From assembly GCA_001797815.1 (NCBI GenBank), contig MGQK01000045.1, forward strand, positions 1 to 25,078: a stretch of 25,078 nt of DNA, written 5' to 3'. The notes beneath the pieces were generated by a model that was not told the DNA's origin, ran no database searches, and was given only the letters and a program-made list of their open reading frames with translations. Every line of letters begins with the position of its first letter. The stretch's first letter is position 1. Positions 21,429 through 24,848 of the stretch are shown one piece after another. The stretch comes from Deltaproteobacteria bacterium RBG_13_61_14. Lineage in GTDB: Bacteria > RBG-13-61-14. Both the position numbers and the translations under genes were made by a program.

Positions 21429-22523
21429 TCACTTGCCCGCCGGCTGCTTTTTCTGCGCGCGCTCTTTGACCACGGCCATCCCCAGGTCGAGAAGGGTAGG
21501 AAAGGGTTTCAAGACCTCGGCATCAGGCCGGCGTTCGAGCTGCAAGGCGGAGGACTCGCAGGCGCTGACGCAGACGCCGCAGCCGATGCAGCGGTTGAGG
21601 TCGCGCTTGAGCTCGTCCCCCTCCATCCACAGCGCCCGGACCTGGCAGCGCTCGGCGCAGTCGCCGCAGTCGGTGCAGGCCGCCTCATCCACCGCCAGCC
21701 GATAGGGCGAATGGGCCACCGCGGCCGGCATCTTGAGCTTGGTGATGGTGCCCAGGAAACCGCAGCAGCAGCCGCAGCAATTGCAGATGAAGCTGATCCG
21801 GTCCACCAGGTTGTCGGAAAGGTGCACCAGGCCGGCCGCCTCGGCCACGTCCAAAGCGCGCAGCATCTCGTCGGCCGTGGTGCGCCGGGCAAAGCCGCGC
21901 TCGACCGCGAAGTCCACAAACGGCCCGAAGATCATGCACACCTCCTTGGGCCGGCCGCAGCCTTTGCCCAACAGCTCGTGCTCGTGCCGGCAAAAGCAGT
22001 TGGTGAGCGCGGAGTATTTCTGGCCCCGGATCAGGTCGCGGACCCGCTCGTAGGTCTGCACCTCCTGGCCGGCCGGCAGCTCCCGCTGGATGGGAATGGT
22101 CCGGGCCACCGCCGTCTTCATGCCGAAACCCTTCGCCCCCCAGCCGGAAAAATAATAGTCGTCGAAGAGCTTGGCCAACGCCCGCGCCTTGGGATCGGTG
22201 CGCGCGGTCATGAACTGGAGCTCGAAAATGCCCGGCACCAGCGGCAGCAGCGCGTAGGCCATTTCGCCCCCTTTTTCCCGGGCGAAGACCAGGCCCTTGT
22301 TGGCCATGGCCTCGAGCAGCGCCCGCGCCACACCCGGCTCGTAGCCGGTGCGGCTGCAGATCCGGGAGAGCGGCTCCCGGAAAGGCTGCAAGGACAGTTG
22401 GCAGGCCAGCTTCGCTTCCTCCACGCTGAACAGGGCTTCCACGATCTGCCGCAACTGCTCGGTACGGGGAGCGCCCGAGGGAAACTCGTCCAGCTTGGCC
22501 ATGACCGCTTCAAACACATCCAT
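21429..22523 (-). CDS. 4Fe-4S ferredoxin-type protein with winged-helix-like N-terminus and extra Cys clusters
   Basis: The 364-aa protein ends in two classical 4Fe-4S motifs, C283-x2-C286-x2-C289-x3-C293 and C312-x2-C315-x2-C318-x3-C322 (dicluster ferredoxin). Upstream are two further Cys groups: C176-x-C178 with C189 and C196, and a dense C247/C249/C250/C252/C253/C254 patch. Either could bind additional clusters or metals. Residues 30-95 look like a winged helix (ICSRTGYEPGVARALLEAMANKG, then a basic wing). This arrangement is seen in uncharacterised proteins of strict anaerobes; an electron-transfer or redox-sensing role is inferred. The ATG has AGGAGG at 7-nt spacing, 14 bp after the propeller gene. 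Confidence 0.85.
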   Translation of the reverse strand: MDVFEAVMAKLDEFPSGAPRTEQLRQIVEALFSVEEAKLACQLSLQPFREPLSRICSRTGYEPGVARALLEAMANKGLVFAREKGGEMAYALLPLVPGIFELQFMTARTDPKARALAKLFDDYYFSGWGAKGFGMKTAVARTIPIQRELPAGQEVQTYERVRDLIRGQKYSALTNCFCRHEHELLGKGCGRPKEVCMIFGPFVDFAVERGFARRTTADEMLRALDVAEAAGLVHLSDNLVDRISFICNCCGCCCGFLGTITKLKMPAAVAHSPYRLAVDEAACTDCGDCAERCQVRALWMEGDELKRDLNRCIGCGVCVSACESSALQLERRPDAEVLKPFPTLLDLGMAVVKERAQKKQPAGK

Positions 22524-22537
22524 GTCTTGCCTCCTAT

Positions 22538-23722
22538 CTATTCCGGATTTGCTTCTTCGGAAACATTTTCTTCCGCCAGGAAGATTTCAAAGCTGCCGTC
22601 GGAGTTGGCTCCTCGCGGATTCACATTCGCATAAAAGACCAGGCGCCGGCCGTCCGCGGAAAGCCGCGGCCCGTAGCTCCCGCCCTGCGCGGTTTCCGCC
22701 ACCAGCTCCGGCGGACCGGGGCGGTTGAGTTCGAGGATGAAAACCTCGGGGTTGTGGTCCGGGTTTTGAAACTCCCGGCCCCAGCGCGAGACAAAGGCCG
22801 CGCGGGAGCCGTTGCCGGAGAGGCTGGGCTGAAACGCTCCCTCGGCCAGGTCCCGGGTGACCTGCTCGATCCCGGTCGAACCGCGAACCAGGAACAGCTC
22901 GTGGTAGCGGTTCAAGTTTTTGCCCAGCGGGTTGCAATTGCCGCGAAAGAGCAAGAGGTCGCCGCCGGGGTTGAGCTGAGGCTCGCGGTTCTCGCAGTCG
23001 CGCGTGCGGGTGAGGGGGTTGAGCGCGCCCGTGGCCGAGCCGGCCAGGATCTCGAAGTTGCCCTCCGGGTTTTCTTCGCCCCGTCTCCCGTCGCAGGCCG
23101 CGGCCACCACGGCGTTGGCCAGGGTCGGCTCCTGGCATACGGACCGCTCCTCCGCGGTCGCCTGCTGCAGGGGGCGGTCCGGCATGGCGAGATCGAGCAG
23201 GAAAAGTTGCTGGCTGTGATCCGGGTTCCGGCCCAGCGGGTCGGCATTGGACAGGAACGCCAGCCAGCGGCCGGAAGGGGCCAGGGCGGGCCGGGTGTTG
23301 GCGCTGCCGGAGGTATCGGTGAGGAGTTGGATCTGTCCTTCACTCTGCAGCAGGGCGATCTCCAGGTTCTGATCGGCATTGGCCGGCGGAAACGAGCAGG
23401 TGGTCGCAAAGGCGATTCGCAAGCCTTTTGCCTCCAGGCTGGGCTCCAGGTTCTGGCAGCGCTCGGTGCGGGTCAGTTGTTCCAGGCCTTGGTTTTCCCG
23501 CCAGCGGAACAGCTCGCGGTTGCGGTCCGTGTTCTCGTCCGAGACCAGGTCGCAGGTGGAGACAAAGACCACGGTGCGGCCGTCCGCGGAGATCACCGGG
23601 TTTTCCGAGACGCCGCCCGTGCAATCGGTGAGCTGGCGGAGCTCCCAGCCGGCCGTGGCGGCCAAGGGCAGCGCCAGGAAAAGAACCAGGAGGCCTACCC
23701 TACCCGGAAGGATGGTTTTCAT
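22538..23722 (-). CDS. Secreted TolB-like (PD40) beta-propeller protein
   Basis: The 394-aa protein begins with a signal peptide (basic KTILPGR, hydrophobic core, cut near ATA). The mature part is a TolB/PD40-type propeller with alternating P-x-(L/I)-x-x-x-G-R strands (NPVISADGRTVVF, RPALAPSGRWLAF, GPRLSADGRRLVF). A distinct motif of the type N-P-D-x-N-x-E-(L/I/V)-F occurs seven times (for example DRNRELFRW, NPDHNPEVF, DGSFEIFLA), which suggests seven blades. Several Cys residues may form disulfides. It is likely periplasmic or surface-located and to bind protein or polysaccharide; it is not TolB itself, since no Tol-Pal genes are near. Its ATG overlaps the selenoprotein stop by 4 bp. Confidence 0.82.
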   Translation of the reverse strand: MKTILPGRVGLLVLFLALPLAATAGWELRQLTDCTGGVSENPVISADGRTVVFVSTCDLVSDENTDRNRELFRWRENQGLEQLTRTERCQNLEPSLEAKGLRIAFATTCSFPPANADQNLEIALLQSEGQIQLLTDTSGSANTRPALAPSGRWLAFLSNADPLGRNPDHSQQLFLLDLAMPDRPLQQATAEERSVCQEPTLANAVVAAACDGRRGEENPEGNFEILAGSATGALNPLTRTRDCENREPQLNPGGDLLLFRGNCNPLGKNLNRYHELFLVRGSTGIEQVTRDLAEGAFQPSLSGNGSRAAFVSRWGREFQNPDHNPEVFILELNRPGPPELVAETAQGGSYGPRLSADGRRLVFYANVNPRGANSDGSFEIFLAEENVSEEANPE

Positions 23723-24360
23723 TCCCGCTCCGAATCGCTGGAATTGGAGGAAGGGGAATAGGCCTGGGGCAGTTCCAGGGGCTTCATGAAGGTGTTGTTG
23801 AAGCGGTTGGCGAAATTGGCCGCAGTGATCCAGGCCTGGATCGAGCGCCGCTGCTCATCGGAATAGGAGCGCTCGAATTCAGCGGCCAATTCCTGGTCCG
23901 GGGTTTGGCCCTGGAACAGCGCCCAATCGCGGGCATAGGCCAGGGCCACCCATTCGCGCCGCTCAAACTGATCCGAAGGCAAAGCGGCCAACCGATAGAT
24001 CTCCTCTTCGCTCAATCCCGCCTTTCTCCCGGACCGGGAGTGGACTTGGTATCAGGCCGCGCAGTGGTTGGCCAGGGTCACCGTCAGCCAGAGTTTTTCA
24101 CGAAAGGCGGGCGTCATCCAGGAGAGGTCCGCCTTCCGGCCCTGGAACCGGCCGGCCATGATGCCCGCAAAGGTCGGCAACTCGCGGAAAAACTCGCCGA
24201 AGGAATGGAAGCCCGGATCAGGGACCGAAGTGCCGAAGTGCTCGCCCTCCGGAGTCTTGGCGCACTCTTTGCGACCGGCGCAGGCGAGGGTCAGACTCAA
24301 GGCCCCTACCCCCATGAATACTCCGATGAATCCAGCCACCCGTTGCCGAGATAACCTCAT
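23719..24360 (-). CDS. Selenocysteine-containing CMD/AhpD-like lipoprotein (UGA at 24052-24054 read as Sec)
   Basis: Read through one in-frame TGA, this is a single 213-aa protein. Residues 1-26 are a lipoprotein signal with C27 in LTLAC. The carboxymuconolactone-decarboxylase/AhpD-like domain holds the redox motif C100-A-A-U103-Y-Q-V-H107-S. In family members this is CxxCxxxH, so the UGA falls on the second cysteine. Downstream sequence (RKAGLSEEEIYRLA) continues the family pattern and is needed for the fold. A SECIS-like hairpin follows the UGA. The ATG at 24360 has GGAGG upstream and overlaps the thioredoxin-like stop as ATGA; the true stop overlaps the propeller start likewise. The predicted role is a thiol/selenol peroxidase or disulfide reductase in the periplasm, with the neighbouring thioredoxin-like protein as probable partner. 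Automated callers would split it in two. Confidence 0.87.
24026..24054 (-). promoter_or_regulatory. Bacterial SECIS-like element with recoded UGA
   Basis: On the - strand UGA (24054-24052) is followed 11 nt later by CTCCC-GGTCC-GGGAG (24040-24026), a perfect 5-bp stem. Its apical loop starts with GGU, the feature bound by SelB in known bacterial SECIS elements. The GGU starts 17 nt after the UGA, close to its position in E. coli fdhF. Confidence 0.8.
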
Positions 24361-24848
24361 TTTTCCTCCTCGCATTGTTTCTCAAATTCGCGGTAGGAGG
24401 TGGTTTGATATTTTCCTTCCCCGATGTAATGAATCACGCAGGAAAATTTTCCCGGACCGACATAGCCGATCAGGTAATCAATCGGCTTGGCTTCCGGGGT
24501 CATAAAGTAAAAGGTCGGCGGCCCCACCACCCGGTAGCGGCTGACCAGTTCGTTTTCTTGATCAAAGCTGATCCGGACCGGGACCAGGCGGGAGTTCAAG
24601 TAAGCCGCGATCTCCGGCCGGGCCAGGACTTTTTGCTCGAGCAATTCGCACTGGCGGCAGGCCTTGCCGAAGAAATAAAGCGCCAGCGGCAGACCCCTCT
24701 CCTGGGCCAGGCGCAAGCCCTGATCGTGCGGGTGCCAGGCAACGGCGCTCTCGGGCGCGGGCAAAGGGCCGGCCCAGGCGAGGGCCAGGGCCATGAGCAG
24801 GAGCAGGGGGAGAAAGCGCGGGGACCAATGCCGGGGCATCGGGATCAT
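24357..24848 (-). CDS. Exported thioredoxin-like protein
   Basis: From ATG 24848 the protein has 163 aa. Residues 8-25 form a signal peptide or membrane anchor. The thioredoxin fold shows LALYFFGKACRQCELLE with active-site C64-R-Q-C67, and a cis-proline loop VVGPPTFYF (P111). It resembles periplasmic thioredoxin-like and DsbD-C-terminal proteins that keep partner thiols reduced. ATG 24848 overlaps the upstream NUDIX stop as TAATG. ATG 24839, three codons on, is the alternative, because a perfect tataat ends 7 nt before it and could give a leaderless mRNA. Its stop overlaps the selenoprotein start, a strong hint that the two act together. Confidence 0.82.
   Translation of the reverse strand: MIPMPRHWSPRFLPLLLLMALALAWAGPLPAPESAVAWHPHDQGLRLAQERGLPLALYFFGKACRQCELLEQKVLARPEIAAYLNSRLVPVRISFDQENELVSRYRVVGPPTFYFMTPEAKPIDYLIGYVGPGKFSCVIHYIGEGKYQTTSYREFEKQCEEEK

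Follow-up and report, generated by a model that had tools for sequence, protein, structure and literature searches.

The window analysed here, a stretch of 25,078 nucleotides from Deltaproteobacteria bacterium RBG_13_61_14, carries a gene that very probably encodes a selenocysteine (Sec)-containing CMD/AhpD-like protein and that is almost certainly intact despite an apparent stop at codon 103. An earlier note on this DNA had proposed a CMD/AhpD-like selenoprotein with a CxxU motif. This central proposal is supported by a complete set of sel genes in the genome, by homologues with Cys at the TGA position, and by the recurrence of TGA in a paralogue and five further genes. Almost certainly, SelB would insert Sec at UGA-103 by means of the organism's own SelD–SelA–SelB–tRNA(Sec) system, directed by a hairpin with its loop 16–17 nt past the UGA. 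Sec would thereby stand where CxxC has its second Cys, in an AhpD-type active site composed of E88, C100, U103 and H107. Automatic annotation would break such a gene in two at the TGA.

The gene lies on the minus strand, where the frame from the ATG at 24360 to the TGA at 23721–23719 contains a single internal TGA. Reading this codon as Sec merges two in-phase frames into a conceptual translation of 213 residues. In the ORF list, the apparent start of the second frame is a TTG at 24015; the 12 codons between the TGA and this TTG specify residues 104–115 (YQVHSRSGRKAG). The arrangement is as first described: two frames in phase around one TGA, a 12-codon gap to the TTG, and 4-bp overlaps with both neighbours, which are exact (24357–24360 and 23719–23722). 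An AGGAGG motif stands immediately 5′ of the ATG. The neighbours are a thioredoxin (Trx)-like gene upstream and a beta-propeller gene downstream (Table 1). A gene for a 4Fe–4S ferredoxin-domain protein follows on the same strand at 21429–22523, 14 bp past the propeller gene. The selenoprotein, propeller and ferredoxin-domain genes possibly form part of a longer operon.

Table 1. Coordinates of the predicted selenoprotein gene, its elements and its neighbours in the window
Feature	Position	Strand	Basis
CMD/AhpD-like selenoprotein gene, 213 aa, predicted Sec at residue 103	23719..24360	-	Translation, PF02627 match, paralogue, Cys homologues
TGA codon predicted to be read as Sec (U103)	24052..24054	-	TGA at same codon in paralogue and in five CMD genes (four further genomes); Cys elsewhere among homologues
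Active-site stretch E88 - C100xxU103xxxH107	24040..24099	-	Invariant in alignment A3; profile columns align with 1gu9 118/130/133/137
SECIS-like hairpin CUCCCG[GUC]CGGGAG (or 5-bp stem, loop GGUCC)	24026..24040	-	Paralogue hairpin at equal distance
Probable export signal, residues 1-27, ending LTLAC (possible lipobox)	24280..24360	-	Hydrophobic core, loose PS00013-type match
Trx-like exported protein, CRQC, upstream, ATGA 4-bp overlap	24357..24848	-	PF13098/PF13899; single genome copy
PD40/TolB-like beta-propeller, exported, downstream, ATGA 4-bp overlap, same gene string	22538..23722	-	PF07676; signal-like N-terminus

The joined product reads as one domain across the TGA, which bears out the suggestion that TGA replaces the second Cys of a CxxCxxxH motif in a CMD-like domain. 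PF02627 (CMD) matches residues 83–143 (E-value 4.5e-7; 30.2 bits, cut-off 23). The 213-residue product also matches the AhpD core domain model TIGR00778. In the motif C100-A-A-U103-YQV-H107, Sec occupies the second position of CxxC and the His follows four residues later. A profile match to 1gu9 places E88, C100, U103 and H107 on E118, C130, C133 and H137 of Mycobacterium tuberculosis AhpD; this correspondence was derived from reported match ranges, with the numbering and the proton relay taken from PMC3141380. The relay set of Glu, two Cys and His is thus present at AhpD spacing, with Sec for one Cys. Like AhpD (1gu9/1knc) and PA0269 of Pseudomonas aeruginosa (2o4d), the window protein combines a helical CxxCxxxH with an upstream Glu at equal spacing. 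However, the similarity is remote, those proteins carry Cys where the window protein has Sec, and the fifth relay residue (His132 in AhpD, Tyr50 in PA0269) is Ala102 in the window protein and Gly in its paralogue. The residue at the His132 position is not absolutely conserved (PMC3141380). Structure prediction from the single sequence gave a model of low quality (mean pLDDT 43).

What the protein does can be proposed from its family. A C100–U103 selenylsulfide cycle may well reduce peroxides or disulfides, a reading that we favour somewhat over others. The Trx-like protein with its CRQC motif is a plausible electron donor because its gene, also predicted to encode an exported product, overlaps the selenoprotein gene by 4 bp; tentatively, then, this co-encoded partner might re-reduce the selenoprotein. 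Taken one step further, an exported Sec-CMD protein served by its own co-encoded exported reductant could constitute an extracytoplasmic selenium redox relay in a phylum that has hardly been sampled, and the paralogue would add another exported Sec-CMD protein; we offer this fuller picture as speculation. If the Trx-like protein is the reductant, the two would form an extracytoplasmic selenium redox pair that is directly testable. A different function, such as a reductive dehalogenation-type reaction like that of the AhpD-fold protein Bmp8, is possible though less likely, and so is reduction by some donor besides the neighbour. The debrominase Bmp8 is among the PDB relatives, and Ala replaces the relay His/Tyr. 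Furthermore, the Trx-like gene is present in a single copy in the genome, with no second copy that could adjoin the paralogue, whose own partner is hidden by its position at the start of a contig. Against this, no substrate or halogen-related gene context was seen, and the closest characterised proteins, which are of the AhpD type with CxxC, show weak peroxidase activity (PMC3141380).

Export of the window protein is likely, judging from its N-terminus. The protein would quite probably act outside the cytoplasm, either tethered to the outer side of a membrane or free in the periplasm. The earlier description as a lipoprotein holds in part. LTLAC fits a loose PROSITE-type lipobox core but fails the strict pattern [LVI][ASTVI][GAS]C, and the paralogue has a signal-like N-terminus without a lipobox. 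Lipidation is therefore uncertain, and type I cleavage at A-C-A/G is also possible. We know of no export signal in AhpD or PA0269.

One line of comparative evidence comes from the same genome. A second CMD gene (G000:C55:207-860) is 47–48% identical to the window gene and carries TGA at the same codon, with NHCVGU HKAH facing NHCAAU YQVH and conservation on both flanks of the TGA. Its PF02627 score is 23.8 bits (cut-off 23). The gene lies at the very start of its contig, so that its upstream neighbour is out of view. DNA identity between the two genes is maximal right past the TGA (top of 135 18-codon windows); there, identical residues are encoded by identical codons at 9 of 10 positions, versus 33 of 66 elsewhere in the compared regions.

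Homologues in other genomes extend this pattern. A two-sequence profile built from the window gene and its paralogue and run over 386 genomes gave matches in 28 others, mostly CMD relatives. The earlier note had asked whether homologues carry Cys or Sec at residue 103 and had called the sequence after the TGA family-like. Most of the homologues examined have Cys at this position and family sequence beyond it. TGA occupies the equivalent codon in five CMD genes of unrelated lineages from four distant genomes: G152 (L042), G354 (L040), G276 (L048) and, twice, G086 (L031, L065). All four of these genomes encode selA. Among seven genomes with the Cys form that were checked for selA, two scored above the cut-off (G037, G259), four had none, and one (G137) gave a sub-threshold match only. 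Such Cys/Sec pairs form the pattern used for selenoprotein prediction. One further candidate that had been listed with a single TGA (G195, L053) proved not to be a CMD gene. Searches of the class and phylum, covering three genomes, found the gene only in the window's own genome; equivalent searches of the phyla of G152 and of G289 covered two genomes each. Two pattern scans of a set of contigs from 84,980 species, an insensitive approach, found no relative. A plasmid search yielded weak partial CMD matches only, and a phage search no match.

These comparisons bear directly on whether the gene is dead or artefactual, an ancestral Cys codon having become TGA by mutation or by a sequencing or assembly error. 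A single base change (TGC or TGT to TGA) would suffice, and Cys is what most homologues carry here. Nonetheless, such a history is very improbable: the TGA recurs at the identical codon in a 47–48% identical paralogue on another contig and in the five genes from four other genomes, all with selA. In addition, the frame past the TGA is conserved and free of further lesions, the 4-bp overlaps with the neighbours are intact, and the genome holds the whole Sec set.

Equally hard to credit is a true stop at the TGA, which would yield an exported protein of 102 residues and a separate protein of 98 residues initiated at TTG 24015. The mechanical ORF does begin at this TTG, and a G-rich stretch lies 5′ of it. 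However, a boundary here would cut a single CMD domain between C100 and H107, and H107, conserved in homologues, falls within the 12 codons outside the second frame. The second product would also be left without a signal.

Sec insertion demands a machinery, and the earlier note had proposed looking for selA, selB, selC and selD; all four were found above curated cut-offs. In the window's genome (4.74 Mb in 132 contigs), selA, selB and selD each exceed NCBIfam cut-offs, and tRNA-Sec exceeds the Rfam cut-off, with ARAGORN in agreement (anticodon TCA). The genes lie in the order selD-selA-selB-selC on one contig (C7). The selD gene is itself of the Sec type, with an in-frame TGA in KCKASGU (G000:C7:12752-13675, L022; TGA at locus 1531) and a hairpin, GGGGUC[CGGGU]GACCUC, 16 nt past this codon. 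The other two genomes searched in the phylum (G001, G002) lack both selA and a copy of the window gene, and Sec use thus appears patchy inside the phylum.

Some lineages decode TGA as Trp, and reading of codon 103 as Trp or another residue, through recoding or general suppression, has a negligible chance of being correct here: TGA terminates ordinary genes, including the selenoprotein gene and the Trx-like gene, Trp does not occur in any homologue at the position where Cys is standard, and Sec machinery is present. The pseudogene, two-protein and recoded-Trp readings were accordingly rejected on the paralogue and homologue TGAs, the unsplit CMD domain, the Cys rather than Trp of homologues, and the sel set.

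A bacterial SECIS element would be expected downstream of a Sec codon. The published bSECIS model (PMC13188914) calls for a loop of 3–9 nt, a stem of 4–16 bp, G in the first two loop bases, a position 16–37 nt after the UGA and a minimum free energy of at most -7.5 kcal/mol. The window hairpin, with a 5–6-bp stem, its loop 16–17 nt past the TGA and an energy of -8.1 kcal/mol, conforms to this model, whose specificity is weak when used alone. Thus, the claim of a SECIS-like hairpin at the right distance holds for presence and spacing, but the stability of the hairpin is ordinary. Its folding z-scores are near zero (0.45 and -0.53), and 42 of the 658 TGAs in the window (6%) are followed by a hairpin of -7.5 kcal/mol or lower. 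By itself the hairpin is not above chance, and comparative evidence carries the case. An Rfam scan of the locus gave chance matches only.

Across the family, the hairpin appears informative. A strict criterion (stem of at least 5 pairs, loop of 3–6 nt lying 16–24 nt past the codon, a G among the first two bases of the loop, -5 kcal/mol or lower) was passed by 7/7 TGA genes, 0/22 Cys genes and 80/1487 background TGAs, figures to be read in light of a criterion shaped partly post hoc, once genes had been seen, and of the shared ancestry of the genes tested. With thresholds relaxed to approximate the published model, 7/7 TGA genes, 4/22 Cys genes and 190/1487 background TGAs passed. The seventh TGA gene, the second of the two in G086 (G086b), fails a narrower version in which the loop has to begin with G[G/T], and passes under the published requirement for G within the first two bases. 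At an equal distance from its TGA, the paralogue has CUCCCA[GUU]UGGGAG in place of the CUCCCG[GUC]CGGGAG of the window gene. Both hairpins keep a 6-bp stem and the GU of the loop, and the loop-closing pair changes from G-C in the window gene to A-U in the paralogue. The codons across the hairpin change amino acids (R to Q, S to F). This paired change with altered amino acids is suggestive that RNA shape is what is kept, although it amounts to one double change. In the isolated paralogue segment, the lowest-energy fold is a different, competing hairpin.

The window gene joins a selenoprotein family that is already known; what is new is this member, from a poorly sampled phylum. CMD domain-containing CxxU selenoproteins were reported from the Sargasso Sea in 2005 (PMC1088965), the PF02627 CxxU family appeared as AhpD-like 2 in the GOS data (PMC2398784), and recent reviews list the CMD selenoprotein family (PMC9312934, PMC13188914). 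The window protein resembles these known members in its CMD domain, its predicted Sec at the second CxxC position and its putative bacterial SECIS past the UGA. It also has a probable export signal, ∼80 residues ahead of the domain, a paralogue encoded elsewhere in its genome, and a gene for a predicted exported Trx-like protein that overlaps its own. As had been anticipated, what is less familiar is export of such a protein together with a possible Trx-like partner; no link between CMD selenoproteins and lipoproteins was found in the open-access literature. The window gene and its paralogue add a pair of divergent CMD selenoproteins, both probably exported, and with them comes a complete Sec machinery from a phylum represented by three genomes in the searches; Sec/Cys pairs of the CMD family are supplied across several lineages.

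Among existing family models, NF053654 (GroundWater_YciW, YciW-related (seleno)protein) is likewise of the AhpD/CMD type and annotated as having Sec or Cys; the window protein is not a member, scoring 30.1 bits, below the equivalog cut-off of 310. Its nearest relatives among those searched are the Cys CMD proteins of G289, G375, G151 and G037 (L027, L028, L035 and L032) and the TGA form of G152 (L042). The window protein and these five share the E, NxCxx[C/U]xxxH, G, A and NxxxNT positions. The five are ∼23–26% identical to the window protein, with no exported N-terminus seen, and most have a hydrophobic C-terminal tail.
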